Source: Terebella lapidaria (lineage: Eukaryota > Annelida > Polychaeta > Terebellida > Terebellidae). Taken from it: a stretch of 64,000 nucleotides of DNA. Both the position numbers and the translations under genes were made by a program. Positions 3,721 to 61,514 of this stretch are shown one piece after another (within the stretch, counting starts at the first letter, position 1; each line of letters opens with the position of its first letter). The stretch covers positions 13,801,667-13,865,666 of the forward strand of contig OX424568.1 in NCBI GenBank assembly GCA_949152475.1, read 5' to 3'. A model generated the notes under the pieces. It was not told the DNA's origin. It ran no database searches and saw nothing but the letters and a program-made list of their open reading frames with translations.

Positions 3721-3783
3721 AGTTACCAGACCATCGGTCCGATCACCTATTGGCTAGCCGGTAAGCTACAGGTCCCTTGGGCC
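3721..3783 (-). mobile_element. Minimal element: two termini with no interior
   Basis: A palindromic terminus (AGTTACCAGACC, then GGTCCGATCACCT) at 3721-3749 is followed almost directly by the opposite terminus (CCGGTAAGCTAC, then AGGTCCCTTGGGCCT) at about 3758-3783. This looks like a family member whose whole interior is deleted, or two abutting ends of different copies. Confidence 0.5.
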
Positions 3784-39800: not shown

Positions 39801-42800
39801 CATATCACATCCAATGTTACTAATATAAGGAATACATAACAACTTTATCTACTAATATGCTCATATCTTTGTGGATCATATATAGATCACATTCATTATC
39901 GTCATGTATGACAGATAAAACAAATATATAAATTCAAGTGCATAATAGCAATACATGGAAATATTTGAAGGTGGATCAGCTAGGAACATATTACCTTTCT
40001 AAAGTGTGGATACTTGCAGAGCTTTTTCGCTCCTACAACCATTAGTACAATAAATCCTATACTGGGCAGATATAGAACCCGCTCAGCTATGACAAAACCC
40101 ACTCGGAAGAGAAGGTTGCTTGCAGGAAGAAACGGGACGATTAGAAGCGCCAGACCCATCAGCAACTGTCTGTTAAATGGAGGAAATGTTCTAACATACA
40201 AATGAAGTAAAAAGGTATCGAACATTAAAAAAGCTCAATATTTATTCGAGAGCAAAAATCATCATTCATTCCAGCAAATTAAATATGTGATAATTATCAA
40301 TTTTCAGGAACGAAAATTGTTTTCTCATAAGTTTGAGAATATCTTTTCTGTTTGGCTGTTAACAATATACAAATGTGATTGTTTATATATGAATAATTCA
40401 TGGCCTAGTCTAATGCCAAATACATACCTTTGCTCAGTGTTTGGTGACTTGATAAGACTGTAGCCAATCACAGCCCCCGACACAAACCAGAAGAGACAAA
40501 CAGCCAATAGCCTGGGGTCTAACAAACTCTCTATTACTGACACACAGCCCATCGACCAATCAAAACACAGCCAGCAGGGGTTGAGCAGTAACCAGGCATT
40601 AATACTGTATAAATAATTGTAATTCAGCAACTGCAAACACAAAAATTGATATATATTATTATATATATTACATATATATATTGTATATTGTATATTCATT
40701 TTATTCTTCCAAAAATTTAGTCAGAACGATTCAATCACTTTTAGTATTCATATTTTCAACCGATATGTTTAAATGTGATTGCCTTCAGAGTGAACTGTTT
40801 TTAAACTACAAGAAATATACTCAACGAACCCTGTAAAAGGGGTTGCCAACAAAGGAATGTGGGTTATCCACAACTTGAAAAGTGGGCGGGGCAGAACCCA
40901 TGACCTGCCATCGACCAATCAGCAACAAGAATGCTGTCACCATGACAACTGATATCCTGAATGTAGGTAGTTTCTGGCTTGTCACTTCTGGCTGCAAGGG
41001 AATAATAGAGTTTAACTTGGATAAATATTTTTTGTGAACGAGAGGAAATTCAAATCAAGAATTGAAAACAAAGATATTTGTAAACTTATAATATTCAGTG
41101 TTGAGTGGCAATAGCAATAATTTTGATGAAATGTACATGCAACCAGTTTGACAAACTTTACACATTTCATGTCTTAATCTCTATCGAATTCTGTCAAGCA
41201 TTTCGTACCGCTGTAGATTTCCTGCTTGGAGGAACCTTCTTGGTTTCTGAAGTAGTAACCAGGTATTTTTCTCTACGGAGCCTGAGAAATGTCAGCGGGT
41301 CGATTCTACAGCATACGATGACATCATAGGCGATACAAATGCCCTGAAATGAAAAACACAAATAAAAGGATTACCGGTAACAGAGTTTTAAACTGAAGGA
41401 AAAAATACATTGATGATTTATGTATATAAATTATGCATGTACGCTTTACAAGTTCTGTGTTATGTTACAATATTGTCCTGTACTATCGGTATTTAAGATT
41501 TAGAAAGATCACTTTCCAAAAACATTCAATGCAAATTATCGTGTGAATTTGTGAAATGGTACAATATTACTTTATCGGACCTAACATTTCATGAATTCTA
41601 TTGTTTTACAAACATCTAATAAGTACCCATACAAACCAGAGCAGTGATTCCTATCTCTTTGCAGAGTGTGGAAATGACAGAAAGCAACATACTCAGACCC
41701 AGCCAGGAGACACCTAGAAAGAATATCCATTGAACACAATGAACAAGGAACCACAGGAGAAGGGAACATTATCATATATTATTCACTCGGTGGTATTCTC
41801 ATTGTAAGGACACTCCTGACGATTTGTACCACGTGACAATCCTACATACTCAATGTTGGACGGCGAAAGTCTACATTGGACGGCAAAAATGTGTATTGGA
41901 CGATGCTGTGCTTATCAGCCAATCAGATCACGTGTTGCATGTGGGTTTTCCCCACTCTGGGTTTCTCCCAACAAAAACGAATGTGGCTTTTGTTTGTTAC
42001 GACTCCGTGAATAATATAGCAAATGTTAGATGTTGAGAGTCGTCCAATACAGTGGTCCCCCTCAGATAAGACCTACCCTTCTGCCACAAAATTAAGGTCT
42101 TATCTAAGGGATTGTCTTATCAGAAGGGTTCATTCACATGTTACAGTCATTCTAGCGCCACAAGAAAAAGTCTTTACAGGGGGGGAAGTCTTTCTTGAGG
42201 GGGGTCTTATCTGAGGGGGACCACTATATACAGTTTACGGGATTCAAAAATGTCATATTGGCTGAGGCGACATCCCGTAAACTGTATATTTATCTCCTCA
42301 ACATCCAATATTGGTATGATATCATTACGTTTACATGATTGTTTGCTCTAATAAGACATATACTGGTAACGACACACCAACAGAAGACTTCTTATCTTTT
42401 TATATTCACCTTTGCTTTCAGTATTTTATTCTCCCAAACTACTCATCTACTTCAAAATGTTTTCATTTGTTTCTATATCAGCCAGCTAGATTCTATATCA
42501 CCTGAACTAACTGCTCTGTGGTAAGCCACTATTGACAGTAAGTACGTCACGGCACACAGCAAGTCAGCCCGTCCCACTACTGCTGCCACCTGTAGGCGAA
42601 TACAGACATCATAAATACTTATTTATCAAGTGACATTTTTCAATTTCATATGTTTGAGAGAATATAGATACACAAAGATGCAATACTGAATGAATATTCA
42701 GTTTTCATTCAATTATAAGAAATTATATGATGAATACTTTACAAAATATGTAAAGTTGTGCATGACAAGTACAGATTATTATATCTCCGAACAAAACAAC

Positions 42801-42810
42801 AAATTTTCCG

Positions 42811-42844
<34 letters not shown>

Positions 42845-43667: not shown

Positions 43668-44796
43668 GCTGAGTGATGAGCATTTTCTTTTTCAACTCAT
43701 TATGTGGGCAGATCTGCAATGAGATAATTATGGGGTTTGTTTTAAGACAAAAAAAATACCAGTATCACTGGAGACTGTTAATTGTAATCATGTTTGAAAT
43801 TTTTTTTTATAAATATATCATCTTCATTCATTCTACCTCATGACTAAATGTAAAACAAATATGCTGTGCTAGCATATTTGAATTGAATATCAGTCTTTAT
43901 TTCAAGGCCAAGCAGTGTGAGGTATGGCCCAAAGCCAGCTTATTGACAAAATGCAGAAATGGATATGGCACACTGTGATCGTGTAAATTACATAGAATAA
44001 ATAAAACACTGGTACCAACATTATGATTCATTACAAATTATATTGTTCGTGACATTATGATTCAACACAGATAACTTTGGTTGAAACATTATGATTCAGC
44101 ACAAACAACACTGATTGCAACATTGATTCACAACAAAAAATTTCTTCATGAAAAGGGACAGGTCATGTTTGTACTTTTTTCACTCATTTTATATATTTTA
44201 AGTATGAAATTTTCTATTAACATGTGTAAATTTATCCCTAACTTTAGCACACTTCGATCTTGCTAATGAATATTCAGGATTCGTTATAAGATTCCTCATT
44301 ATATATCAGTGCTTGAAATGGTCCTTGATTTTCTCAAGATCTATTGGAGTATACGAGAACAGGAGTCTTACAAAATTTTATGAAATTCTAGCTCTGAATA
44401 AAATGAGAGAAATCATGAACCATTTGCTCTTCATAAATATAAATGGGTAGCACATTTGAATATTTTTCAGGGAGGCACACACAAAAATGAGACTTCACAG
44501 TTGAGATTGAATTTATTTTGAGTTTTCCTGACAAAATGCATGAGTATTATTAACCAAACAATGTAGATAATATAAATATAAATGGCATATACTACCAGGT
44601 ATTTCACTGTTCAGTAATAGTATGAGTATGTGTGATCCAAAAATATTGTTCCATTTTGATGGCACATGTACATAGTCTATATTTTCTTCTAGTCAGTCAT
44701 TTGGTTGACGAGGATGTGTGCAGGAATGGAGGTATAAAGCTGGAATCCGATGTACAGAAGCTTGTCAGCAGGATGTTGTCACCATTATAGCATGCA
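43668..44796. other. Intergenic: TMTC4 promoter side and 3' flank of small peptide gene 1
   Basis: AT-rich, no gene recognised. On the minus strand an AATAAA (plus-strand TTTATT, 44512-44517) about 280 bp past the gene 1 stop is a plausible poly(A) signal for that gene. Confidence 0.4.
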
Positions 44797-45477
44797 TTAG
44801 TCTGGGGGGTTATTCGTGTTTCCTCCACAGCAGGAATCACGATCACACATCCTGCAACAACAAAAACATGTCACTAAAATCTTAGGATTTGAAGTTAAAA
44901 ATGTAGAAAATTCAGATGCACAAAGACCTCAAAATTCCTAAATAAACCAGGAGATATAGTACACATTACATATAGAGTATTAAACAACAATACAGTTAGT
45001 ATTTTTTCGAACATACATGTATATGTAGTATTTCATCAGTGAACACTTGGTGCACATGTGAATGTTATAACACTAACTTTTTGAATTGTTTGAGCAATAT
45101 AACAGTCTCACAATGCTAATTTGTTCTATTTGAACATTATGATATTGTCAAACCTTCCGCCCCATAGATTTTTCTTCTCACAAAACATTTACTGACCCTA
45201 ATATTCTGATATTAGAATCTTCTCAGACATACAAAATCAGTCAACAAAAAATTCCATCCTTTTAGCAATAATGAAACGTACCTTGTGCAATAAAGCACCA
45301 AATCTTCCCTGATTGTTTCCATCTTAAATCCCTCCTATCTGATATTAAAATGACTGAACAATCAACATGTCAGTAAAATATAATTAAATTAACTTACTTG
45401 CTACATCCCCCGCCATCCGAGTGCTGGGTTTTGTTTTCCTCCGTGGAAGAATCAGGTTTCTTTGCATCGACAGTCAT
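44797..45477 (-). CDS. Small metallothionein-like peptide 1 (44 aa, 4 Cys)
   Basis: Two exons: 45477-45398 and 44851-44797, GT-AG intron in phase 2. Exon 1 encodes MTVDAKK, an acidic middle (SSTEENK) and THE box QHSDGGGCSK. Exon 2 adds MCDRDSCCGG and the tail NTNNPPD. The first exon is nearly the same as that of genes 2 and 3, and the intron phase is shared by all seven cluster genes. This agreement is the main evidence that the model is real. No signal peptide, so cytosolic. Four Cys (C, C, CC) with Asp/His suggest metal binding. Metallothionein-like is an inference from composition, not from homology. A TATA box lies 34 bp before the ATG. Confidence 0.7.
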
Positions 45478-45510
45478 TTTGGCGCATTAAACAATCGGAT
45501 CACAGATAAA

Positions 45511-45519
45511 CTTTATATA
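45511..45519 (-). promoter_or_regulatory. TATA box of small peptide gene 1
   Basis: TATATAAAG on the minus strand, 34-42 bp upstream of the ATG at 45477. With usual spacing the transcript would start only a few bases before the start codon, giving a very short 5' UTR. An AAAACCAC motif (minus strand, 45546-45539) lies just upstream. Confidence 0.6.
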
Positions 45520-46250
45520 CCTACTGGTATCCAAGATTGTGGTTTTGGCACTATCCTCTTGGTGTGCTTAGGAACAGTAAACTTTCCGTGAATTTTTTCT
45601 GATCAGATTTCGAATGACAGTTCTAGGTGTAAAACCATCTCTAGCAACCGAGAAACACTACAGAAATAGAACGTGATTGAGAATTTCATTGAAAATGAAT
45701 TCCATGGGTGACTCTTAGACAAGCGCATTTTGATTTATGTAAATAATAAAATACAGTCATGTGAAAAGAGTTTTCTGTCTAATAAGTAATACTTTCAATT
45801 GGCTGTCATGACAGAGGTGACTCAGCTTGGTCATTATAAATTTGTTTTTTTTATAAATTCAAGACACTATTTTTATAATATGATCATCTCCCAAGAGTCA
45901 AATGAGGTGAGTTCAACACACCGAGCTTATTGTAATATTACTTGTGTCTTTATCTTGTGTAAAATTTGGGTGTTTTGTTGCTTCGTTTTAGTTATGAATA
46001 TTACTTGCACCTTTGTATAATATGCAACAGAGCACCTGTCAAATTCATACATGTTGGGATATGGTTAGAGTTCAATTTAGATTTTATTGAATATTTGTTA
46101 TGAAGTGAGCAACTCGTTCCATAGGTACAAAATAATGAACAAAAAAGCATTAACACAAACTGTGTGCTTTTGAGTTTGGTCTAAAAATTGTTTTTAAATT
46201 TAAGTCTAAAATTGTGTGGCAAGAAAAATTGTAGTGTTTATGAAAGGTAA

Positions 46251-46425
46251 TACATGTAGATCCTGTGTTTTAAGACCATGCAGAGGACCCCAAACAGGTG
46301 ATTTTAAATGACAGGTGGTCTCTCCTGGCAGGTTCACTTAAGAACCCATTTGGGACCGAGGAGAGCAGTTTTTTAAAACAGGGTGGTCCTTCATGAAGGT
46401 GGTCTTTAATACAGGATCCACTGTA
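46251..46425. mobile_element. Degenerate TACAGTGG-type MITE
   Basis: The right end GGATCCACTGTA and left end TACATGTAGATCC are inverted relatives. The TAAGACCA and GGTCTTTAATACAGG blocks mirror each other. It appears to be an older member of the family at 42048 and 49458. Lies upstream of peptide gene 1. Confidence 0.5.
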
Positions 46426-47369
46426 TGTGTGGATATGGAAATGAGAATTAAGGTTAATCATCAAGCTCAATTGAAACATATACACAACATCGAATGTAGT
46501 TACTTTAACTTTATTCCAAAGAAATGGTGAGTCGGTGCACATAAGCAGAAACATTCTAACTCAATACAAGAGTGGTAGTCACAAACAGTTTCACCTTTGA
46601 GATTCGATTTTGAAAGAGTATTAATCCAGATATACTGCAATAACCATGTTTTTCAATACACCACATAAAACAATGATATAAGGTATTTACCCTAAAGACA
46701 CTGTCTGAGAAACTATAGAAAATTACTTGTAGTAAAATGTATACCGTTTTGATCCTAATAGTAGCACGACGAGCCAAAGCGAGACCTCCTGCTGCAGCAC
46801 GCACAAAAATGAGGTCAGACTTACTTGGTCAAATTGGGAAAATCACTGAATAATATACCTATAGCCTTCAGACCCCTTTATAATTATTCAAATACATGTA
46901 ACATGTGTGGATTGGAACACGCCAAGATCTTATTAGAAAGATATGGAGTGTATTACAAGGCTACAAAAATTGAACCTTTCAGGCGGAAAAAAGGAGGGCG
47001 CTCTACTATTAGGGCACATGCTACTAATAAGATCAATTCGGTATAGCAAAAAATATTTTTACAATTATATTTTGATGTCAAACATGTCAAATAAAAATGA
47101 TCAAATATGTCTACATTAGTGTTGTAAGACTTAAGTCATTTTTTATGGTATTATCTTTCATTTGAACAAGTAAATTTTACTGGTTTCGCAAACAAAGCGA
47201 ATGAATCCATCAAACTCTGGTTTAAACATAAAACCTTCATTTGCTCTCAGACCTAAACTCAGCCTGAATTATTGAGTTTGACGGATACATTATAAATTCA
47301 GACATGCATAGTTCATATCGGTAAATATATGGACCGTAATTTTTGTGGTGTTCATTTGATATATTCATT
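46426..47369. other. Intergenic sequence between peptide genes 1 and 2
   Basis: No coding exon recognised. AT-rich sequence up to the minisatellite. Confidence 0.4.
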
Positions 47370-47591
47370 GATGTGCAGATGTCAACATGCTGAGGCTGAT
47401 AGGCAGATGTTGATGTGCAGATGTCAATGTGCTGAGGCTGATAGGCAGATGTTGATGTGCAGATGTCAACATGCTGAGGCTGATAGGCAGATGTTGATGT
47501 GCAGATGTCAATGTGCTGAGGCTGATAGGCAGATGTTGATGTGCAGATGTCAATGCACTGAGGCTGATAGGCAGATGTTGATGTGCAGATT
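47370..47591 (+). repeat. 42 bp minisatellite, 5.3 copies
   Basis: Units start at 47370, 47412, 47454, 47496 and 47538, with a partial unit at 47580. The core is GATGTGCAGATGTCAACATG, then CTGAGGCTGATAGGCAGATGTT. Copies 1 and 3 have CAACATG where 2 and 4 have CAATGTG, so an 84 bp dimer seems to have been amplified. The length is a multiple of three, so the array is open in several frames on both strands; those ORFs are artefacts. Confidence 0.9.
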
Positions 47592-47722
47592 TGGAGGTGT
47601 TGATGTCCAGGTGCAGATGTCAATGTTCAGGTTAGTCACTTCATGTCATCACAGGGTTGGAGGCCATCAAAGGTCTTGAGGACTAGACGTGCTCAAACGA
47701 CCAAAGACATCGTTGACATGTT

Positions 47723-48322
47723 TTATTCAGGAGGGTCATTGGGATTTGGTCCACAGCATTCAGAGCAATCATCGCAGCAGCAACCACAACACCTGCAACA
47801 ATAAAACATATCCAGTTTGTCCAAGTCTTTTCACGTCAATTCGAAGTATTCTGTGAATCGTTACTAATTGGCCAAAGATGTATTTGCAAAATCTGTTTGT
47901 TGATACAATTTATGATGCAACTCGGACAATTTTTGAGTGCATTTGAGAAAGGTCAATTAGGAATTAACTGACAAAAAGTCTTATTTCACATGTTCATTTA
48001 CATGTCAAATTGATCTTCGGGGAATAGGAAAAGTGGAATAGAATTGGAATGGTCTTATTAAACACCTACAAGTAGAGATATGGCAAGAATGTTCACAGAA
48101 CGTATATATAAAATCTCCAGAATTCAAATGTTATTTCCCAAACCGGCCTGATTTTTTCATAATTCATACTGAGTGAACTTACATGTGGCAATAAAAATGT
48201 TATACATGAATATAAAAATAGAATAAGGTTACTTACAACCATCCACGGCATTCACAGCCATCCGAGTGCTGGATTTTGATCTCCTCGGAAGAGACTGGAG
48301 GTTTCTTCGTATCCAAAGTCAT
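47723..48322 (-). CDS. Small metallothionein-like peptide 2 (51 aa, 10 Cys)
   Basis: Exons 48322-48237 and 47792-47723, GT-AG, phase 2. The N-terminus MTLDTKKPPVSSEEIK and IQHSDG match genes 1 and 3. The centre is a dense Cys block spanning the junction: DGCECRGWL, then CCGCCCDDCSECCG. The tail is PNPNDPPE. Ten Cys in 23 residues with CC, CCC, CxC and CxxC pairs is a classic thiolate-cluster composition. It is the strongest metallothionein candidate of the group, and heavy-metal or zinc/copper binding in the cytosol is inferred. The stop codon TAA overlaps AATAAA (minus strand, 47727-47722). A TATA-like TATTTAAAG at 48366-48358 lies 36 bp before the ATG. Confidence 0.75.
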
Positions 48323-48357
48323 TTTGACGCTATGAATTACCCATCTGGCAGGCTAGC

Positions 48358-48366
48358 TTTAAATAC
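48358..48366 (-). promoter_or_regulatory. TATA-like box of small peptide gene 2
   Basis: TATTTAAAG on the minus strand, 36-44 bp before the ATG at 48322, nearly the same spacing as in gene 1. AAAACCAC follows upstream at 48390-48383. Confidence 0.55.
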
Positions 48367-48390
48367 TGTTTGAAGTTTGAGAGTGGTTTT

Positions 48391-49457
48391 AGCACCTGTC
48401 CAATACTATAGTAAGAACATTAAACTTTCCGAGATTAATTTTGTCTGCTTTTTCGGATTACATCGTCCATTGTAAAACCATCTTGTATTCAACACCAGAA
48501 AACCACACCAGCTATATGTGGAAATACAAACTAGAACAGGTTTTTCGATGACATGGCTAGATGAAAACCACCGTTAACAACAGAAAACCACACGAGGATA
48601 AATAATGATTACAAAATCGAATGAGTAACCTTTAAATAACAGGTAAGTGCATTTTGAAAAATATAATGTACAGTCATACACATCAAAAAGCACGGTTTTT
48701 GTCAAAGGAGCAATGGTTTTAAATGTCCGGTCATGACTGAAACCTGACACTTAGGTTGGTAAATATGCATTTTTGTTTTGTCCAAGATTTTGTTTATTAG
48801 GAACATCTTTCAAAAATAAAGTAAGATAAAATGAACCAAAATATTGTCAATATGTGTGAATTCTGGGCGTTTCTTCTTTCTTAAAATTACATTTCATAAT
48901 GATTATGGATATTAATATGTAAATATATCAAATTATTGTGCTCATTTTTCATTCTTTATCTTGTATATGTATCGTGTAAATAATCAGTGTACTGTGTTGG
49001 CTAATCACAAATTAGATTGGATATGCTTTCTGCTTTCATAATAATCTAGCATGACATTCGGAAGAGTTTGGACAGTAAACAAAAATGTCAGCATATTTGG
49101 CCTACAATAAATCTAATGCATTTGGAAAAAGTTTTCTTTTTCCGTTATGAATAGGCCGAACGGGCTATTTTTTAGTTTACTGTCCAATCTTCTTGAACTT
49201 CTGTACCCAAACTTTTATATCTGCAATCTTACATATAAGACCATTCTCTATAAAGATTTTCAGTCTGTGAGTGAGATCCTTTGTAACAAAACTGCCCGTC
49301 AACTGTATAAGACCTTAGCCCCAGGTAGCATGTGCTGCCTGTTTTTCTGTATTCAATGAGGATTAAATAGATGCGAGACAGATTACATGGTATGTTTTCA
49401 GTGGACAAGGGCAGAACATGCTACTCGGGCCAGGCCTTATTTGATGGCCATTGTATA
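48391..49457. other. Intergenic, upstream of peptide gene 2
   Basis: Contains several AAAACCA(C/T) motifs on the plus strand (near 48474, 48499, 48563 and 48585), also seen upstream of genes 1 and 3. No coding exon recognised. Confidence 0.45.
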
Positions 49458-49638
49458 TACAGTGGTCGCTGTAAGATAAAACCTCACCTTTTGCAGTTAA
49501 AATGAGGTCTTATCTTACAGGAAGTCTTATTTTACAGGTTCATTTACATGTTAAATTGATCTTTGGGGAAGTTAAAAAAGTCTTTACAGATAGGGAAGTT
49601 TTATTTTGGAGGGGTTTTATCTTACAGGAACCATTGTA
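49458..49638. mobile_element. MITE with TACAGTGG-type TIRs
   Basis: Left end TACAGTGGTCGCTGTAAGAT; right end ATCTTACAGGAACCATTGTA, imperfect inverted copies. The interior shares GAGGTCTTATCTTACAGG, TTACATGTTAAATTGATCTT and AAAGTCTTTACAG with the copy at 42048-42228. Non-autonomous. Confidence 0.75.
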
Positions 49639-50164
49639 TTATAGAATCGAATGAACACAATTGACACACGCATAACATTTGTAGAGTAAAGAAATTTTAT
49701 TTCGAATGAAAATTGCGCCGATAGAAAGTTTGACGCACACACAACATTCATGGAGTTAAATAGTTTCAGTCCTATCTCAAACTGATATTGCACTAATAGA
49801 AAGTTCTAACATCACACTATAAGCACCCATGAATACTACCGGTAGTCATGACAGAGAAGACAATGGAAATGAACATATTGTATAAACCATGAATATGCAT
49901 GATATGTTACATTCTCAGTTACGTATCATATCATGCATATTCTTTGATGATTATGCAATCACCTTGTGAACACTTCATAATCGCCTGTACAAATTTAGTA
50001 CTACGTGTAATTTAATATAGTATATTCGTAACTCAATTTCACATACACATACTGCATTCTATGTGGCGGTATACATGTATATGAGTATCTTATGTGACAG
50101 TCCATTTTTAATGTCTATAGATTGGTTCCCCTAGGCACATGTAACAGTGTAAGCGAAAAAAGCT
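49639..50164. other. Intergenic sequence
   Basis: No gene recognised. AT-rich, with an inverted ATATGCATGATATG / CATATCATGCATAT pair near 49892-49941. Confidence 0.4.
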
Positions 50165-50329
50165 GTGGATGTCAGTAGGCGAAGTTGTACATCTTGGCGG
50201 TGAATGTGGATGTCGGTTGGTGAAGTTGTACATCTTGACGGTGAAAGTGGATGTCGGTTGGTGAAGTTGTACATCTTGGCGGTGAAAGTGGATGTCGGTT
50301 GGCGAAGTTGTACATCTTGGCGTTGGAAA
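50165..50329 (+). repeat. 41 bp minisatellite, 4 copies
   Basis: Units begin GTGGATGTC at 50165 and 50206, with 41 bp spacing. The core continues GGTTGGTGAAGTTGTACATC then TTGGCGGTGAAA. The minus-strand ORF across it is an artefact. Confidence 0.85.
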
Positions 50330-50370
50330 AGCGTTGTCAAGAGGTAGACATCATCTGATCGTTTATTACC

Positions 50371-50780
50371 AATTCATAGTTCCGCTGACATCCCAACAGG
50401 CCACGCCCCCTTGGCAACCGCAGGAAAAGTCCCACAAACATACCATGTGCTTTTGCTTGAGCAAGTCGGGAATAATGTAACTTTTGCTTGCTTCTGTTTA
50501 CACATTCGTTTTGTAAAATAATACATCATATTTCACATGTCTATACTCATAAGGGGATGGAGAATATATTGTAAGCTTAAATTTTTAACTTATTTTGCTT
50601 TACTTGGCCGTGAGTTCATCAGAAGTACACTATCATCCCACTTCATTCAAGAGGTTGGGCTGTTAAACACGCCGGTTTTGTTTGTGGGACTTTTACGTTT
50701 TGGCGCGTTATTGGAGGTCTTTTGATTGGGTAGTAAATATGGAAGTGGGCGGGGCTTATGTATCATCGGAACTATGAATT
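50371..50780. mobile_element. 410 bp TIR element overlapping the end of peptide gene 3
   Basis: The outer ends are inverted: AATTCATAGTTCCGCTGA at 50371 and, on the minus strand from 50780, AATTCATAGTTCCGATGA. Further inside, AAAAGTCCCACAAACA (about 50425-50440) mirrors TGTTTGTGGGACTTTTAC (from about 50678). GCCACGCCCCCTTGG and GTGGGCGGGGCTTA are also mirrored. The right terminus supplies the last codons of peptide gene 3. Confidence 0.7.
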
Positions 50781-51450
50781 TCTGTCATTGCCTTTGTTGG
50801 TTTCTTGACACTCATCACAGTCACAACATCTGCAACAATCAAATCATGTTGTCAACATTACACAAAGACTACACAAATTAAGTGTACAGAATAGTGATCG
50901 AAAAAAAAAATTGGAATATTCATTCAAGATCACAGTATGTGAAATATCATCATCAAGAATGTGGAAACGAAATCAGTGAACAAATCTATCTTAGATCTAC
51001 ATCGGTAGAACAGTAACTATGTGAGGGTCTTTTCATCTCTTCAACGCATTATGATGAATATACCACTTCATTGCTATATGCCATTTCAGCACCTTGCCCG
51101 AATCAAAATTTATTGAAAATTTGATATTTAATCTTTCACTTTCAATGACTCCATTTTCAGAATCAAATTACTGCTAGATTAGAATGTCAAATTCATAACT
51201 TCCTTGATTTAATTGACAGGGAACTATTTATATCAGGTCCCTGATAATACTGTCTCAATACAACTTCCCTGTTTCAACATTAATTTGTGTCGAATATCAT
51301 CATGAATATAGCCATATCCAGCAATGAAATAGTTAACAATAATACCAGTATCAGTAAATTTACTTACTTGCTACATCCTCCACCATCTGAGTGCTGGATT
51401 TTCTTTCCCTCTTCCGTTGAGGTAGCAGATTTCTTTGTATCCTTAGTCAT
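50772..51450 (-). CDS. Small metallothionein-like peptide 3 (46 aa, 5 Cys)
   Basis: Exons 51450-51368 and 50829-50772, GT-AG, phase 2. Exon 1: MTKDTKKSATSTEEGKK, then IQHSDGGGCSK, almost the gene 1 sequence. Exon 2: CCDCDECQETNKGND, then RNS and stop. The other cluster genes end NDPPE, NDTPE or NDAPE. Here the tail after GND is different, because the last codons (AAT TCA TAG) are the terminus AATTCATAG of a mobile element. The element has apparently replaced the ancestral C-terminus and stop. Five Cys in CC, CxC and CxxC spacing suggest metal binding (inferred). Cytosolic by lack of a signal peptide. Confidence 0.7.
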
Positions 51451-51498
51451 CTTGCTGTTTACTGTTTGCTCTTTGCCGGTAGAATGATTGGATATGGA

Positions 51499-51537
51499 CA
51501 CGTGGCACATCTTTAATAGCCCGAAGTCTGTGGTTTT
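51499..51537 (-). promoter_or_regulatory. Promoter motifs of small peptide gene 3
   Basis: On the minus strand an AAAACCAC (51537-51530), a TATA-like TATTAAAG (51518-51511) and a palindromic CACGTG E-box (51504-51499) lie 50-87 bp before the ATG. Confidence 0.5.
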
Positions 51538-52727
51538 GGCAGCAGGCCACCAATCAGCATGCACCAGCTGATCAATATTGCTGCATTCTGGGCTTCCCGA
51601 TAGTTTCTGACTTCATTTTATCAGTACATTTAGGTAAAACCATCATATTAACATCAGAAAACCACAAGGAGAAAATAGTCGGAAATTTACCATGACTCGA
51701 TGACAAACGGAAATGTTTCTCTGAGATAAGCGCTGGTGAATGTATTGATTTCTTTGTGAAAATGGATCAAATATAGTGCCCGATTAATATATATATATAT
51801 GATTTTTGGACTCTTGCCCAGAGGTAGGTGTAGTTTGTGTGCATATTTTTCACATTACTTTGTTTGCTCAACTGTATTTCAAATGCCATGTTTACATATA
51901 TTTACATATACGTGTATGCGACTCTAAAATCTTGTTTGGTCTGCTTCGTTTTTACTTATTTCAACAATCAGTGAAAAACTTAGCTCATTGACCAGGCGTA
52001 CCGAAATGATCTATTTCATGATCTATAGGAAAAGCTTGAAGAATATTTGTGCGATTGTTTTGTATGTGATCTTAAAAAGCTTAATATTAAATATATTACA
52101 ATATTAAATATATTGAAAAATATGTTTGAATCCTATATGAACTCTGTTAACTTTGTACTAGAAGTTTAAGCATGAAATTTAAATTTATTGACCTGCCCTT
52201 AAACAAACAGAAACGAACACATTTCAAGTGGATCTGTTGATTTATTATGCATATAAAACTACATCTGTGCGCACAAGTAATATCATGAATATTTCAGCAG
52301 AGCTCAGTTAACACTCATTGTGCATATAAACCTTGTTACAATCAATACATGTACGTGTACGCTTGCATATAAATTGTTGGTGTAAAAAAATATCGAAAAC
52401 AAACAAACAAAATTTGCTATGAAATACATCAATGATACATCTATATCTGGTAACACATCACAATGACGAAAATATTATTTTTTTAATTTGGTCATGTATT
52501 ATTGTGTACACACATGTATACATTAATGCCACAGAGAAGATATAGTGTATGATTTTGTTGCAATTGAGCAATGTTCCAAGAAAACAGGTCACTACAAGCA
52601 AGCAGTCATTAATTATAACTATTTAGAACTTTTATAGGCGCCGACCAATCAATGTTTCTTTGCTGCCAACCCGACGCTCCAAAGTTCAACAGTCGAAGGA
52701 CGGCGCCAGGCAGCTCACATCAAGTCA
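51538..52727. other. Intergenic between peptide genes 3 and 4
   Basis: Includes plus-strand AAAACCA motifs near 51634 and 51657, a short TA tract at about 51789-51801, and from 52029 the first copy of the segmental duplication. No exon recognised. Confidence 0.4.
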
Positions 52728-53820
52728 TTAGTCTGGTGTATCGTTTACGTTCTTCTCGCTGCGAAAACATAAACAAATACCACAAAATTACTTCAACATG
52801 TCAAATCGGTGAATAAAAATTTAAGATTTAGGACTTATTACCAGTTAAACTGAAAAACAAAAGTTACATATTTCGCCATGATAATTCATTTTCACCGTTT
52901 TTTGGAACACTCACTTGTAACATTTGGGGCACTTTTTCTTCGGATCATGGTCGTGCTCCTTCACTTTGCAACACTTAACACACCTAAAAAAATTTGCAGG
53001 AAAAAATAAAACTTTTGAAATGTACATAGATATGTAGTGTTACATGCAACCCCACATAAAGAGTAATGCTAAGAAGTATATTTTTTAATCCAACAACATA
53101 AAAAATATTAAGACTGCAGACAATATGTCGAACAAGATCAAGCCATTTTCCCTGTACTTCCAAATTATTGTATTCATCGAACATGCCGTTTAATTTTGGC
53201 ATAAAGCAATACAAAAATTTTCCTCCTTTCTCATAAAGTTATGATTTCAGAATAAAAAGTCTAATTATTTAACACTGACAGCTGAAATCTTCAATAAATA
53301 CAACACCAAATATCAAGTGATAATTATAAAACGACTGGTACTCACTTGGGGCAGGAATTTTGACCGCCTTTATCCATTTTCTGAACGAACAAATTCTCCA
53401 AAGATATGTTCACCAAACAGTGTCTCGAGACAATAATGGACCAATCTTGATCGGGCAAGGCATGTATGTGAAGTGATGGATACTTGCCACGACGGAAAGT
53501 TTCATCCACACCAGGCCACCCCCACCTCCACCCCTGCCCGGGCTTGAACAACCACACCAATCCCGACAGCTAAAACCACCACCATCAGGAAACCACCGCT
53601 ACAACTCCCCATCCAAGTCAACAGCATGGACGGCACACGTGACTCACGCTACAAATCAATACACATGAACTTGCACGGTAACTAGCTTTGTTTAGCTGTG
53701 TGAGCGTACACCTGTATAATTCATATATAGAATGTAATGTATGCATGTACATGTGCACTGGGTATTAGCAGCCAAAATACTACTCATCCATGCAATAAAT
53801 ATAACTTAATCCATCTATCT
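52029..53820. repeat. Segmental duplication, copy 1 (carries peptide gene 4)
   Basis: Starts AAAAGCTTGAAGAATATTTG and matches 53821-55713 along its length, gene and introns included, with scattered substitutions and small indels. The unit is about 1.79 kb. It lacks the 125 bp MITE found in copy 2. Confidence 0.85.
52728..53377 (-). CDS. Small Cys/Lys-rich peptide 4 (43 aa, 6 Cys)
   Basis: Three exons: 53377-53346, 52983-52915 and 52758-52728; GT-AG, both introns in phase 2. Sequence blocks: MDKGGQNSCPK; CVKCCKVKEHDHDPKKKCPK with CY; NEKNVNDTPD. CPKCVKCC and CPKCY make two CxxC-type pairs, with a His/Asp-rich linker (EHDHD) between, a plausible metal site. The tail NDTPD matches the other cluster genes, but exon 1 is different and shorter. 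Gene 5 is its close tandem copy with the same exons. Metal binding is inferred from composition. No signal peptide. Confidence 0.7.
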
Positions 53821-54480
53821 GAAAAGCTTGAAGAATATTTGTGCGATTGTTTTGTATGTGATCTTACAAAGCTTCTTATATTAAATATATTGAAAAATAT
53901 GTTTGAATCCTGTATGAACTCTGTAGACTTTGTACTAGAAGTTTAAGCATGAAATTCAAATTAATTTACCTGCCCTTAAACAAACAGAAACGAACACATT
54001 TCAAGTGGATCTGTTGATTTATTATGCATATTTAACTACACCTGTCGCACAAGTAATATCATGAATATTTCAGCAGAGCTCAGTCGCCACTCATTTTGCA
54101 TACAAACCTTGTTAATATCAATACATGTACATGTACGCTTGCATATAAATTGTTGATGTAAAAAAAATAGGAAAAAACAAACAAAATTTGCTATGAAACA
54201 AACAGTGATACATCCATATCTGACAACAATGACAAAAATATTATTTTTTGAATTTGGTCATGTATTATTGTGTACACACATGTATACATAAATGCCACAG
54301 GGAACATATAGTGCATGAAATTTATTGCAATTGTGCATAGTTCCAAGAACACAGATCACTACAAGCAAGCAGTGATATAACTATTTGGAACTTTTATGGG
54401 CGCCGACCAATCAATGTCTTTTCGCTGCCGACCCGAGTTCTACAGTCGAAGGCCGGCGCAAGGCATCTCATGTCAGGTCA

Positions 54481-55159
54481 TTACTCTGGTGTATCGTTTC
54501 CCACGTTCGTCTCGCTGCGAAAACATAAACAAAAACCACAAACTTAGTCCAACATGTCAAATCAAAAGAATAAAAATTTACGATTTTGGAGTTATTACCA
54601 GTTAAACTGAAAAACAAAAATAATCTAAAGTTACATATTTCGCTAAGATAATTCATTGTCACCGTTTTTTGAAACACTCACTTGAGACATTTGGGGCACG
54701 TTTTCTTTGCATCATGGTTGTGCTCCTTCACTTTGCAACACTTTGCACACCTAAAAAAAATGTATCAAAAAATTGTGCAGGAATAAAATTAAATTTTTGA
54801 AATGTACATAGATATGTAGTGTTACATGCAACCCCACATAAAGAGTAATGCTAAGAAGTATATTTTTTAATCCATCAACATAAAAAATATTAAGACTGCA
54901 GACAATATATCGAACGAGATCAAGCCCTTTTCCCTGTACTTCCAAATTATTGTATTTATCGATCATGCCGTTTAATTTTGGCATAAAGCAATACAAAAAT
55001 TTTCCTCCTTTCTCATAAAGTTATGATTTCAGAATAAAAAGTCTAATTATTTAACACTGACAGCTGAAATCTTCAATAAATACAACACCAAATATCAAGT
55101 GATAATTATAAAACGACTGGTACTCACTTGGGGCAGGAATTTTGACCGCCTTTATCCAT
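54481..55159 (-). CDS. Small Cys/Lys-rich peptide 5 (44 aa, 6 Cys)
   Basis: Three exons: 55159-55128, 54750-54682 and 54514-54481; same phases as gene 4. Exon 1 is identical (MDKGGQNSCPK). Exon 2 reads CAKCCKVKEHNHDAKKTCPK and CL. Exon 3 reads NETNVGNDTPE, one residue longer than in gene 4. All six Cys are kept while the linker changes (DHDPKKK to NHDAKKT). This argues for selection on the Cys pattern and against a dead copy. Function as for gene 4. Confidence 0.7.
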
Positions 55160-55494
55160 TTTCTGAACAAACAAATTCTCCAAAGATATGTTCACCAAAC
55201 AGTGTCTCCAGACAATAATGAACCAGTCTTAATCGGGCAAGGCTTGCATGTGAAGTGATGGAGACTTGCCACGACGGAAAGTTTCATCCACACCAAGCCA
55301 CCCCCACCTCCACCTCTACCCGGGCTTGAAAAACCACACCAATCCCGACAGCTAAAACCACCACCATCAGGAAACCACCGCTATAACCCCCCATCCAAGT
55401 CAACAGCATGAGCGGCACACGTGACTCACGCTACAAATCAATACACATGAACTTGCTTTGTTAAGCAGTGTGAGCTTACACCTATATCCTTCAT

Positions 55495-55619
55495 GGCCCA
55501 AGTATCATACACTGCGCCTTAATACTAATCATTCACTAAATGAATGCCATTTAATCCGTCTGTCACCTTTTTAATCCTTATTGAATATAGAGGAAGGCGC
55601 AGGATATGATACTTGGGCC
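55495..55619. mobile_element. 125 bp MITE with ~25 bp TIRs, present only in duplication copy 2
   Basis: The left end GGCCCAAGTATCATA and CTGCGCCTT, and the right end AAGGCGCAG and TATGATACTTGGGCC, are inverted with two mismatches. Flanks TCCTTCAT and TAATTCAT look like a degenerate 8 bp target duplication. The homologous site in copy 1 (about 53716-53723, TAATTCAT) is empty, so insertion followed the duplication. Confidence 0.8.
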
Positions 55620-55713
55620 TAATTCATATATAGACTGTAATGTATGCATGTATATGTGCACTGGGTATTACCAGCCAAAATACTACTCATTCGTGCAATA
55701 AATATAACTAATC

Positions 55714-57938
55714 TATCTGTCACCTATTTAAATCTGATCTGTTACAAAAGGTAACAATAATGATTCAAAACTCCATTTTATTGTTAAAATTTCATTGATG
55801 CAGCTAACTGCCCTAAGTTGTCACTTGTGCTGCTTGTAGGGCTAAAAATGTGTGAGATGAACTAAATGGTATGTTCTCAGTACAACTTACAAGTACTGTA
55901 CAAACTACTGCCCATGTAGTGCACTTTACTCAACTATTACTACTGACCCACTAATAAATGGCATTTAATCCATCTAGCATATTTTTAATCTGCATTAAAT
56001 TTAGAACAAGGAGTAAGCCATAAAAGGTTGAGCTGCTGTGAGATTAACAGTGGTAATAAATGAATGATTTCGATATTTGAAACCTAAAGTAAACTAACAG
56101 GTAAAATGTGAGTTTATCTTGTAAGATTTTGCCTCGTGTCATTCAAAGTTTTTAATAGATATTTGGTGTCAATTTATTCATTTGTTTCACTGAATATTTT
56201 GTTGGACATCGAAGAGTATGTGTGGTTTTTCACTATAATTCCAGCATACATGTACATGTAGATATATTTATGTAAACAAGAACACACAAGAAATTAATGT
56301 TTTCTACACCAGTTTTATTGAAATCAAAGCAATAGAATAGTCTCAATGTTACATGATTATGTATACATTGCAAAATGTGTTTTGATCGGAGTTTGATTTG
56401 AATTAAAATATGAAGCAAAATAACACAATGTTCACAACTCATAATGAGACATATTGAATTATACAACAGATATGCTAATGACAGCATAATTCTGAGATAC
56501 TTACATTAAATACTTAACCATTACAACTCTATTAATCAAACACTTCAAATCTATGAGTTTGAGATTGTACTGATGCTAAACAAGGTGTGTTAACTGATGG
56601 ATCTCATACATCATTTGGTCAGGACAGTTTCAGGTCAGCGACATTTCACCATGGCATCCTTTTACTGCATTTCGTTGAATTATTTGAGGGAATAAATGTT
56701 TGCTCTTTGGAGGAAAAATACAATAGGCATAAATATATCAGTGCACTGCCACATATTCTGGTTATTTTGCGGTGATCACCATGAATACCACCAGCGCGGT
56801 AGTTTACAGTAATAGGATGCCGTGGTAAAAAGATGCCACTGACCGTAGACCATCAACATGGCTTGTAGAAACAAACGTGTGAAAATCCCTTCGGCTTAGG
56901 GCCCGGCATGAAGGGACTACCAATAAATGGTAATCAAGCAGTAAACTCTAGGCCTAGCTTGTCATAAACTTTAGCAAGTGAAACTCAGTTGAACACCTCA
57001 CGAATACACGTATGCGTGTGGTCTTCAACCAAGCGGCGTTGCCATTCTTCCATATTTATCACCAGGGAATCAGACGTGTACGAGGCGTGCTAGACGCCGA
57101 CCGGGTGGGCGATATTACAGTAACTTGAAGAAACATGAGAAATATGCTGTATGATCTGAGCGTTCTTGTACAAGTGCGGGTTGTTATATTGAAAGTATCA
57201 TGAAATGAACATGTATCAATACCACCAAGAGCATACCAACCAAATGTACGTACAATAAACTTATTTTTCACACAAATATCACTTTTTCAACAGTTTGTGC
57301 GGCCTTGACCTCGCGTGGAAGCGGGAGGGATAGTTTGGTTTTACAGTTCATGTCGTAATTCATCGAATATCAAACTTGGGTTGACTGTAAGATTTCTATC
57401 ATGATCACAAAGTGCGAAGAAAAAATATAACATCTATCTGATTATGACATAGCTGTCGACACATAGTCCTGGCTAAATCTGGATGTTATTTATACCGGTA
57501 TTCAATTTATGATACAATATACAGTCGAATATCGAAGCAGGTGCCGCATAATTTAGATAAACGATATTATGTTAACTATTATAGCTTACCTCGCAATTTT
57601 CCCATACGATGGATCTACCTATCAAACTGTGGGTTGAGAACTATATAGCACATATTACTGTTTTATTGTGTTTATATACAATGTATGCCTACACTAAAAA
57701 CTAACATGCAAATGTCCATTTTCTAGCATGTCCTATTGAAATTCTGTCATTTTATTGCTCGTTGTCCAAAATTCTTCTTGGTGTACCTGAAGTATACAAA
57801 CCAAATAAGGATATATCTTATTATCTTTGATAAACGAATACCTTAAAATATATAGATTTGGGACAAATTATTCACTTTGCTTTCGTTTGCACGTTTGTAC
57901 AAAAACGCTTACAATCGTGTGCCTAGCTGTTACTTGGA
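55714..57938. other. Intergenic between peptide genes 5 and 6
   Basis: I searched by eye for another member of the small-peptide family on the minus strand and found none. AT-rich; no other gene recognised. From about 57345 it is the start of the second segmental duplication. Confidence 0.4.
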
Positions 57939-58200
57939 TCATTCTGGTGCGTCATTCCCTGTATTCGTCTCCGTGTCTTTCTTTGAACTGTCGATAGATA
58001 ATCATCTGATATAGCGACAGTCCAGTAATAAAGAAATTTAGTTGGTGTCCCAAACGGTAAATTTCAGCTAAAGGTCAATGCTTAATTACACCGAAGGAAG
58101 AAACGAATACAAATATAGGGTTTACTGACCATGAGCTGAGAATGCCCCCATCGTCGTGTTCCATCTTCTCTTCCTGGATTTCCTGTATTGGCTCGCCCAT
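57939..58200 (-). CDS. Small peptide 6, Cys-poor cluster member (39 aa, 1 Cys)
   Basis: Exons 58200-58130 and 57987-57939, GT-AG, phase 2. Sequence blocks: MGEPIQEIQEEKMEHDDGG, ILSSCSKKDTETNTG, NDAPE. The H-D-D-G-G box and CSK match HSDGGGCSK of genes 1 and 3, and the NDAPE tail matches genes 2 and 4-7, so kinship is clear. Only one Cys remains, so thiolate-cluster metal binding is unlikely. It may be a diverged or decaying member, or have taken another role. A different acceptor 22 bases earlier (ending 58009) would give an in-frame stop, so I chose the CTATCGACAG acceptor. Confidence 0.6.
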
Positions 58201-59540
58201 TTCGCCAGATATTTCACAATATTAAATTCGCCAATATATCACAGAAACACGTTAAAATATAAACAGGATCGAGATACTCCCGTAATGAACCGTATACGAA
58301 CAAAAGTTGTGACAGACGATTAGCAAATGTGTTAAATGGCGACTTGCACCTCATTATCATAATCAAACCACCCTTCGACCAATAAATCGCGGCACATGAA
58401 GCACTGACATCACGAACTTGGGAATACCTGACAACCATAGGTAAATAAATCGTCAATAATCTATGAGGTAGGCTATCGTTGGAAAATTCCTACGAATTCC
58501 AGATGGTTAATGTAGTTTTTGTCAGTGTCCATATTACATAAGTGTTTTCCAGTTTTCTCACAACTTTAGTTTTCCTCATGAAATTTTGATGCGCAGTTCT
58601 TGGTGAAATGTATGACGTGCACTGCACTAGTTTTTAACGGCCAGATTTTGTAACAGTCTGAGAATGAAGACTTTCAGACTATATGTCCCAATTTCCAGAC
58701 TTCATTCGGCTTGACTGGCCAATATAGGTACTGGGTCTATACATAATTCCAAACTTAGAAATTTCTGAAGATATATGCGCGAATATATATGAAAAGAGCT
58801 TCACAAATAACACGCTTCGATTAGATGTCTTGTTCTCATATCTGTAAACTAGCAAAACATTTGATGTTTGTCATGTCGTCCAAGTTGGCTTTTCATGGGG
58901 ACGTAATGATAACTCAAATCTTCCACGTTGCCCCCACTTCAGCAGGCCCATCGTCAGAAACTCTCACATTCATCAATCACAGTAGTGTTACGTATATCGC
59001 TCAATAGACATCAGTTTTTAAGAATGAATAAATCAGAAATAAAAATTAGAAAAAATAACAGATTTGAGAAAATGGAGCTGGTGTCAAAGATTAAAAAACA
59101 CAAAGTCATACTATACCAATGGTCATTCCTACCTCCAAAACTGATCAGAATTACATCATGTTGATAATATACGCTGTATACGTCGTTCCCGGGTGTTGGT
59201 GTCAAATGTGGATAACTTCTACAATACGCACATGTAACAGATGAGCTTGTCTTTCATTGTCTGTCTGCACCTCTCATAAGTCATAACCACCGATTATAGT
59301 ATTGATCAGCGGGAAAAACCCAAAGCAAGTTGCACTGGCGTGCGTTGGCATCGAATATCGACATGTTTGATGGAGCCAGTGTGGCCTCCGACAAGGAATA
59401 ACATAACATATAGCTTATACCAGCAAAATTTTATTACTACAACCACCAGTTACTACCGAGATATACGAAATAGATCATCACGGATATTCCAGATTTAGTT
59501 GGCATTGATACATTTTAGTGTTTCCCCACTGTGAATAATT
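58201..59540. other. Upstream region of peptide gene 6
   Basis: Contains AAACCAC at 58365-58371. No further exon recognised. The segment CTCTCATAAGTCATAACC near 59271-59288 looks like a transposon excision footprint relative to copy B. Confidence 0.45.
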
Positions 59541-60556
59541 AGCCCAAAGGCTAAGGCAGGTTACCGGAAAATATATGTTTTAAATTACATGTATAAATAT
59601 TAGATCTAGCCATTTTGTCCTGTGACCTTGAAAATGAGGGCAAAGGTCAACTTCAAGGTCATCAAAATATTTGGCATACATCATACCTTATATGTGCACA
59701 ATTGATTCCTAAGCTGTAAAGTCGATAAGAAGTGATATATTAGCCATTTTTTGCTCTGATTTTGAAATCTTGATCTTGATATTCGGCCTATATCATTTTC
59801 TATATGTTCACAATTGATTCATATGCTGTAAAGTCGATAATAAGCGAGATATTAGCTATTTTGTCCTGTGACCTTGAAATTTATGTCAAAGGTCAAATTC
59901 AAGGTCACGTCAATGATCTAAATATATCATTTCCTATATCTTCATAATTTAATCCTAAGCTGTAAAGTCGATAAGAAGTGAGATATTTTTGTCATGCCAT
60001 TTTGTCCTATGACCTTGAAAATTAGGTCGAATGTCGAATTCGTGGTCGCGAGAATATTCAGCATACCGCGTATATCATTTTCTATATGTTCACAATTAAT
60101 TCCTAATCTCTAATCTCGATATAAAGTGAGATATTTGGGGAAAAAATGTGTCCCATCATAAAGCATAGGATAATTTAACATGGGATAGTCCCAAAATGGC
60201 CCACTTCGAGCAATTCAAGGGTAATCGAAACTTATACACGTCCGTCACAGGGGCACATATGAGGAGTTTTACGCATCAATAAAGAAGTTAATGAACAGAT
60301 TTTGAGAAAACGACCGAAAAAAGTCCAAAATTGGCCGATTTTCGTCCAAAATAGCCGCCACTTTGAAAAAATTGCGAAAATCAAAAAACTAAAATATATC
60401 TCCGTCTTGAAATATTTTAAGCTATTTGTGCAAAATTTCAAGAAAATCTGACTGAAATCTTCAAATGTAAAAATATGGATGACACCTGACGACGGACGGC
60501 GGACGACGGACGCAACGCCATGCCAATAGGTTATCGAACCATAGGTCCGGTAACCT
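59541..60556 (+). mobile_element. AGGTTACCGG-family element inserted in duplication copy A
   Basis: Left terminus AGCCCAAAGGCTAAGGCAGG then TTACCGGA; right terminus GGTTATCGAACC, loop, GGTCCGGTAACCT, ending 60556. The interior has four or five 130 bp AGGTCA satellite units, then the AAAATAGCCGCC module and GACGACGGACGGCGGACGAC. The paralogous site in copy B (about 62862-62865, ACTATGAG / AAAGGCAAATTAC) is empty. This confirms the element boundaries to within a few bases. Confidence 0.85.
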
Positions 60557-61246
60557 AAAAAGGCAAATTACATCAGAACTCCTTTGGAGAAAAAAAAAAT
60601 ATGCTACACTGAAATAGTGACCCTCGGTAGAAAATACTGTTTCGAAACACAACTAATCTGACATCAGATAAAAACGTCGAACACATCAACACATTTTTAC
60701 ATTCTTTACATGTAGCTTCATTGAATATCAAACTCGGGATCACAAAGTGCACATTGAATAGAAAACATCTCTCTAATTATGACATGGCTGTCGACAAATA
60801 TTCCTGGTCTTGACCTTGACGTTATACATATTCAATTAGTGATACAGTCAAATATTGAAACAGATGAGGCATAATTTAAATAAACGGCAAATACATTTCA
60901 TCTTAGGTATTACATTAATCCCGTACAATGAATCTACGCATCAAAATGTTAGTTAAGAACTATGTTATACATATTACTATGTTACTGTGTTTATATACAA
61001 TGTAGGCCTACATTAAAAATAGCATATTATCATCTTTTTCCAGCAGCATGTCATATCGAGGTTCCATAGCTCGTTGTCCAATGATCTCCATGGTGTCCCT
61101 GAAATACAGAAAACAACAACATAGATAGCCCTATATTTTAAATAAACGAATACATATAAATATGTAGATTCAAGAGAAAATGATTCACTTTGTTTTCGTT
61201 TGCACGTTTTGTACAATCGATGCTTACAATCGTTTGCCTTGTTGGA

Positions 61247-61514
61247 TCATATATAGGTCTTCTCTGATTCTGCTGTGTCATTCCCTGTATTCGTCTCCTT
61301 TGTGTCGCCTCCGCAGCTAGATAATAATTCGATATAGCCACAGTCCATTAGTATAGAAATGTACTTGGTTTCACGATCGGTACAGTTAGCAAAATTAAAA
61401 ATCTGTTAATTATCACAAAGAAAGAAACAAATACCAGTAAACTTACCAGCCGAAAATGTCGCCATCCGCGTGTTCTACTTTTCCTTGATGGATTTCCTTT
61501 TTTGGTTCACCCAT
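61247..61514 (-). CDS. Small peptide 7, cluster member with extended tail (45 aa, 2 Cys)
   Basis: Exons 61514-61447 and 61316-61247, GT-AG, phase 2. Sequence blocks: MGEPKKEIHQGKVEHADGD, IFGCCGGDTKETNTG, NDTAESEKTYI. It is the paralogue of gene 6 (MGEP start, TKETNTGND). The ancestral stop after ND-x-x-E has been lost, and reading continues six codons to a new TGA. The CCGG is shared with gene 1. Two adjacent Cys only, so metal binding would need dimerisation. Upstream AAACCAC at 61680-61686. Confidence 0.6.

Follow-up and report, generated by a model that had tools for sequence, protein, structure and literature searches.

A tandem cluster of seven small peptide genes with a variable cysteine core in Terebella lapidaria, with putative metal binders among its members

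We analysed a stretch of 64,000 nt from the annelid Terebella lapidaria (GenBank assembly GCA_949152475.1, contig OX424568.1, positions 13,801,667 to 13,865,666 of the forward strand), hereafter the window, in which positions are counted from the first letter. It carries a predicted cluster of about 17 kb with seven genes for very small peptides, all on the minus strand. Their models, reconstructed here from the DNA letters, are called g1 to g7 in order of position. The exon anatomy, the tandem duplication, the low ratio of nonsynonymous to synonymous substitution (Ka/Ks) in exon 1 of g1-g3 and the boxes upstream of g1-g5 are observed directly in the DNA. They frame the discussion of whether the members rich in cysteine (Cys) might bind metals.

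Gene models and exon anatomy

All seven spliced models translate as the original prediction had stated, into peptides of 39-51 residues (44, 51, 46, 43, 44, 39 and 45 for g1 to g7). The rebuilt models also bore out its Cys counts of 4, 10, 5, 6, 6, 1 and 2, which correspond to shares of 9.1% in g1, 19.6% in g2, 10.9% in g3, 14.0% in g4, 13.6% in g5, 2.6% in g6 and 4.4% in g7. The introns are indeed all in phase 2 (nine of nine), each with GT..AG borders, the donor of g6 being GTCAGT. Two exons make up g1-g3 and g6-g7; g4 and g5 have three, the middle one being a symmetrical Cys exon of 69 nt.

In g1, exon 1 (45398..45477) starts with ATG and reads MTVDAKKPDSSTEENKTQHSDGGGCS, and exon 2 with the stop codon (44797..44851) translates as MCDRDSCCGGNTNNPPD. 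Exon 1 of g2 (48237..48322) and of g3 (51368..51450) come from model translation and Ka/Ks; the terminal exons hold the Cys core CCGCCCDDCSECC in g2 (47723..47792) and CCDCDECQETNKGNDRNS in g3 (50772..50829). The acceptor context TTGTTGCAG is common to g1-g3. In g4, exon 1 (53346..53377) encodes MDKGGQNSCP and is the same in 32 of 32 bases as exon 1 of g5 (55128..55159, from model translation). The middle exons, symmetrical 2-2, lie at 52915..52983 in g4 (CVKCCKVKEHDHDPKKKCPKCY) and at 54682..54750 in g5 (model translation and genome search), and the last ones end in NDTPD (g4, 52728..52758) and GNDTPE (g5, 54481..54514). The last pair consists of g6 (exon 1, 58130..58200; exon 2 with stop, 57939..57987, ending ETNTGNDAPE) and g7 (exon 1, 61447..61514; exon 2 with stop, 61247..61316, ETNTGNDTAESEKTYI); for both, the coding evidence of exon 1 is weak.

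Some of the motifs on which the family had been proposed need rewording. QHSDG is present in exon 1 of g1-g3, but it does not end the exon, which continues to GGCSK in g1 and g3; HDDGG and HADGD occur in g6 and g7, and there too the exon runs further. The claim that six of the seven tails follow ND-x-P-E/D or a close variant was overstated, as the pattern is exact in four (g2, g4, g5, g6). The others are NNPPD in g1, NDRNS at the end of g3, and NDTAE followed by six further residues in g7. Three differing minisatellites lie 3' of the first three stop codons: 34-nt units about 0.7 kb from that of g1 (44017-44124), 42-nt units about 0.13 kb from that of g2 (47368-47590) and 41-nt units about 0.45 kb from that of g3 (50165-50322). 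In the 42-mer array each strand has an open reading frame.

How far such models might arise by chance can be judged from a splice-grammar scan of the whole window, whose filters were devised after the genes had been seen. It returned seven initial-exon candidates on the minus strand, five of which are exon 1 of g1-g5, and none on the plus strand; exon 1 of g6 and of g7 escaped it. Family exons account for 10 of the 16 internal or terminal candidates on the minus strand and for none of the 10 on the plus strand. The Cys-rich terminal-exon candidates without family features (6 minus, 10 plus) are what would be expected if the entire set were an artefact of hand-joined short open reading frames, as would the facts that the models are predicted from sequence and that no database relative was found. 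Yet the Ka/Ks of about 0.2 in exon 1 of g1-g3 beside unconserved introns, the shared acceptors and the upstream boxes make such an artefact very improbable. With 8, 7 and 6 Cys, the three 14-residue reads of highest Cys density in the window coincide in part with exon 2 of g2, g1 and g3. Cys density by itself is not decisive: some residues of the dense reads at g1 and g3 come from introns, and reads with 6-8 Cys turned up in 5 of 30 Markov simulations.

Divergence between copies and their upstream regions

Exon 1 is the best conserved part of g1-g3, with 70-81% identity between copies. Its pairwise Ka/Ks is 0.19 for g1/g2, 0.23 for g1/g3 and 0.25 for g2/g3, counts made without a significance test on some 80 bases and 15-16 synonymous sites per pair. 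In introns and 3' flanks 50-60% of aligned sites differ and the introns are unalignable; exon 2 has a nucleotide identity of only about 45-49%.

A unit of about 1.78 kb was recently duplicated to give g4 and g5. Their peptides keep all six Cys and both His, differ at seven residues and have gained or lost one codon, with a Ka/Ks of 0.58. Along the unit the divergence is 0/32 in exon 1, 3% in intron 1 (300 nt, 53003-53302 and 54785-55084, are 97% identical), 8/69 (12%) in exon 2, 14/156 (9%) in intron 2 and 13% in the 3' flank. With so little difference in the first exon and intron, against 9-13% in intron 2 and the 3' flank, the pattern resembles a 5' tract of gene conversion more than an effect of selection. 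Positive selection was considered for exon 2, which is more diverged than intron 1, but it was rejected given intron 2 and the 3' flank. Hence, of the proposal that the core is under diversification, the variation in Cys is real and the selection is not borne out: no pair among the compared copies has Ka/Ks above 1, and exon 2 of g4/g5 diverges about as much as intron 2.

The pair g6/g7, a duplicate of about 3.3 kb, is older. Exon 1 differs by 28%, exon 2 by 26%, the intron by 29%, the 3' flank by 25% and the 100 bp upstream by 21%, and Ka/Ks is again 0.58. One well-kept stretch encodes ETNTGND, and one alignment places indels of 3 and 11 nt in the coding part. Between the two genes sits one copy of a dispersed satellite (2851-3721, 8460-9162, 59607-60135) whose units are about 134 bp long and include words like AAGGTCA; similar DNA occurs in both flanks, the likeness of the arrays within the window being judged by eye. 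The genes might then be g1-g3 alone, perhaps with g4-g5. In g6-g7 the frames might be coincidental, the pair being either duplicates that have decayed or do not code, or no relatives of the others. Exon, intron and flank that diverge alike (21-29%), the two indels, the GTCAGT donor of g6 and an upstream sharing of 10-mers not above control all point that way. Still, both frames are open and can be spliced in phase 2, and both retain ETNTGND as do g3 and g5, so that we regard this explanation as rather unlikely. The comparison of exons with introns that the original prediction had proposed thus favours g1-g3 and goes against g6/g7. Taking Ka/Ks and exon versus intron divergence group by group, confidence in coding drops from g1-g3 to g4-g5 to g6-g7, and the coding evidence can be called good, moderate and weak, respectively.

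The upstream regions carry putative promoter boxes. The pattern GRTGGTTTTA has five exact matches in 64 kb (shuffle mean 0.48), all upstream of g1-g5 and on the minus strand, as GATGGTTTTA in g1 (45630..45639), g2 (48473..48482) and g3 (51635..51644) and as GGTGGTTTTA in g4 (53571..53580) and g5 (55353..55362). A second putative box, CGGAAAGTTT, occurs four times in the window without a mismatch, each time upstream of a family gene: on the minus strand in g1 (45579..45588) and g2 (48422..48431), and on the plus strand, inverted relative to the gene, in g4 (53493..53502) and g5 (55275..55284). It has nine one-mismatch matches elsewhere. In g1 and g2 the boxes stand at near-equal distances from the ATG (about -160, -110 and -70), followed by a TATA-like element. 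Upstream 10-mers are shared by g1/g2 (6), g1/g3 (8) and g2/g3 (5), in each case above the 95% point of the control, which is 4. The heptamer GTGGTTT occurs in all seven upstreams, and 14 of its 25 window matches lie no more than 400 bp upstream of one of these genes. For g6/g7 this proves little, since in 2 of 200 random sets of seven some heptamer was likewise common to every member. A comparison of the upstream regions in the window gave no convincing element that g6/g7 have in common with g1-g5.

Relationships within the cluster and searches for relatives

Homology within g1-g3, g4-g5 and g6-g7 is clear. In tblastn comparisons g1, g2 and g3 are strongly linked through exon 1, g1 and g2 also through exon 2 (E 5e-6), and g4 pairs clearly with g5, as does g6 with g7. 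Homology between the three groups is suggested by a weak tail match, the intron phase, the tandem layout and, for g1-g5, the promoter boxes. The tail ETN-x-GND occurs in g3, g5, g6 and g7, with weak scores across groups (E 0.016 for g5/g6 and 0.054 for g5/g3). The link gains weight because each of these tails is encoded by the terminal exon, preceded by a phase-2 intron, on the same strand and in tandem.

Searches in six frames of the whole genome (761.6 Mb in 438 contigs, the window being on contig 15) returned very little outside the cluster. At E<=0.001 g2 matched its own two exons alone; at E<=10 g3 matched g1-g3 alone, and g5 matched g4-g5 and three weak places on other contigs (E 0.8-4). 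These searches failed to link the groups inside the cluster and thus exclude close copies elsewhere, not diverged ones. No convincing further member was seen in the 30 kb past g7 or in 10 kb beyond the opposite end of the window.

Databases gave no credible relative either. With all seven peptides searched up to E 10, Pfam returned no family for four and only families other than metallothioneins for the remaining three, a negative limited by HMMER filters, which may drop short Cys-rich queries. The matches were weak: Anti-TRAP at E 0.29 (g4) and 0.41 (g5), and RNHCP at E 0.066 (g4). In NCBIfam none of the seven had a credible relative, with pqiA_fam touching two members at a best E of 0.013. 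Among PDB sequences g2 matched NPC1 chains alone (E about 3), and a profile of the seven members matched none. In a collection of 5.8 billion proteins, which includes many animals as judged from matches of the neighbouring TMTC4 gene, the alignment of g1-g7 gave seven candidates, none at E<=10, and an artificial g1-g3 consensus with a g5-type tail, together with g5, gave none. This is weak proof of absence, as that search needs shared exact 5-mers, takes at most 100 words and depends on short proteins having been annotated. The family of classical metallothioneins, PF00131, had no match in the genome itself, but it had none in 14 control genomes either and exons are split, so that this result is uninformative. 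An Rfam scan of 40-64 kb found nothing, and a literature search on metallothionein returned no paper for phoronids, nor for Annelida, Mollusca and Nemertea combined. On this sequence evidence the tandem family is probably real, lineage-restricted as far as searched, and so far an orphan.

The gene next to the cluster, on the minus strand at 38270-43667, is an orthologue of TMTC4 whose best matches are molluscan, with about 50% identity. In a tree of 36 rows it falls on the spiralian side (29 rows, support 99/98) but not within the group, itself supported, that gastropods, bivalves and one chiton form; its order relative to Lingula, annelids, nemerteans and cephalopods is unsettled. The placement is coarse given a roughly joined query, a long branch and a midpoint root. 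Further away lie a GC-rich retroelement at 32299-37655 with domains for reverse transcriptase (RVT_1 E 9.4e-22) and RNase H (RT_RNaseH 3e-5), which from its layout may be DIRS-like, and a single-exon reading frame of 747 residues on the minus strand (13769-16012) without a Pfam match at E<=0.01.

Possible metal binding and known systems

Metallothioneins are defined, in the excerpts of PMC9781358, by fewer than 100 residues, about 15-30% Cys, and CC, CxC or CCC motifs. All seven peptides are within the size, and g2 alone is within the Cys range. Its pattern CxCx4CCxCCCx2Cx2CC holds, in overlapping counts, three CxC and four CC, including a CCC. There are one CxC and one CC in g3, a single CC each in g1, g4, g5 and g7, and none in g6. 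Hence, by composition g2 alone falls under this definition and may be considered a candidate new metallothionein. In the earlier description, the common scaffold with a varying Cys core holds true; the label of metallothionein-like fits g2, loosely fits g4-g5, and does not fit g1, g3, g6 or g7. The idea of a secreted Cys-rich peptide was rejected because no member has a signal-like start (9-residue mean hydropathy at most 0.80 within the first 30 residues in all seven). Without a hydrophobic N-terminus, the peptides are probably cytosolic.

We discuss, at about even confidence, a tandem family of seven genes for cytosolic mini-proteins whose Cys-rich members are putative metal binders; a metal-thiolate role for these members is likewise about a matter of one half. 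Duplication would have built the family from one ancestor of g1-g3, g4-g5 and g6-g7, the N-terminal exon, the phase-2 intron, the C-terminal tail and, in g1-g5, the promoter boxes being kept while the Cys core changed. If the peptides are made and not exported, g2 in the first place and then g4 and g5 might hold Zn(II), Cd(II) or Cu(I) through Cys thiolates. For g2 one might envisage a single cluster with some 3-4 divalent ions, for g4 and g5 more likely one Zn(Cys)4 knuckle pair, and for the Cys-poor g1, g3, g6 and g7 another or a reduced role. The family would then be a metal or thiol buffer in which different copies take different loads. We consider it unlikely that this amounts to a new self-standing class of metallothioneins of a single spiralian lineage, with a fixed N- and C-terminal frame, divided by phase-2 introns, and an exchangeable Cys core of 1-10 thiols; that one scaffold and, in g1-g5, one promoter type serve all copies, as such a class would imply, is equally doubtful.

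Several observations weigh against a metal-binding family of seven. Four of the seven peptides have less than 12% Cys. An unrelated place at 42344 scores E 0.020 with g5, comparable to the tail link between g5 and g6, and the exons of g6/g7 are as diverged as their intron. The promoter-box patterns were picked after the sequences had been inspected; g4 shares 2, 4 and 2 upstream 10-mers with g1, g2 and g3, and g6 shares 0-1 with g1-g4, none above the control of 4. The metal-response core TGCRCNC has one site (in g3) in 7 x 500 bp upstream, with a background of 0.20 per 500 bp, and 25 sites in the window, where shuffles average 33. The core is thus not enriched, and in front of the seven genes it stays at the background rate, which argues against control by MTF-1, though not decisively. 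Metal-response elements (MREs) are common at metallothionein genes but not universal; that of C. elegans has none, according to excerpts of PMC4101491.

The same facts leave appreciable room, if less than an even chance, for a real tandem family with a job other than metal buffering, such as small acidic or basic cytosolic adaptors or stress peptides. Their Cys might, with the same reserve, serve a single structural zinc (the CPxC knuckles of g4/g5), redox or nothing. Conservation lies in the scaffold and the tail, which are poor in Cys, rather than in the core; g6 and g7 have 1-2 Cys, metal-response cores are at background, and Anti-TRAP, RNHCP and pqiA_fam, the weakly matched models, are of zinc-binding or similar type. 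Ten Cys in the 51 residues of g2, with CCC, CC and CxC, would be hard to fit to a single zinc site. Two CPxC knuckles are a trait of zinc-ribbon and CPxC knuckle proteins, and g4 and g5 have them: their pattern is CPxC-x16-CPxC (C9PKC12 and C29PKC32 in g4), with a CC and two His besides, and resembles zinc-ribbon or rubredoxin-type knuckles. Their best Pfam matches are far under the curated cut-offs (13.6 bits versus 24 for g4 with RNHCP, 11.1 versus 32 for g5 with Anti-TRAP) and NCBIfam gives E 0.013 or worse. A single Zn(Cys)4 site would be as likely for them as a cluster.

Among known metallothioneins, the putative metal binders of the cluster recall several systems, which we compare from excerpts of the papers cited. 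The amphioxus genes BfMT1 and BfMT2 (PMC3419175) are also small and in tandem on one strand, but they have four exons and several upstream MREs and antioxidant-response elements (AREs), unlike the two or three exons and the background MRE cores of g1-g7. The mollusc beta1 and delta domains (PMC9781358) are small and use CC, CxC and CCC, and delta is lineage-specific. Yet beta1, [CxC]x3[CxC]x3Cx5[CxC]x3[CxC], and delta, with 14 Cys, match none of g1-g7 by eye. For molluscs and appendicularians, the same paper treats the de novo origin of metallothionein domains as an open question. Should g2 prove to be a metallothionein, the cluster would show one in the course of being gained or lost, next to relatives that share scaffold and promoter without most of the ligands; within 17 kb, copies loaded with ligands would neighbour others that are nearly empty. 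The gamma domain of the limpet metallothioneins LgiMT1/2 of Lottia gigantea (PMC10235030) differs in spacing (CCx5CCx4CCx6CCx7CC) and is fused to a 9-Cys beta1 domain, whereas g2 stands alone. Like g2, it is a short lineage-specific unit with 10 Cys and many CC, and it forms an M4(SCys)10 cluster that binds four Cd(II).

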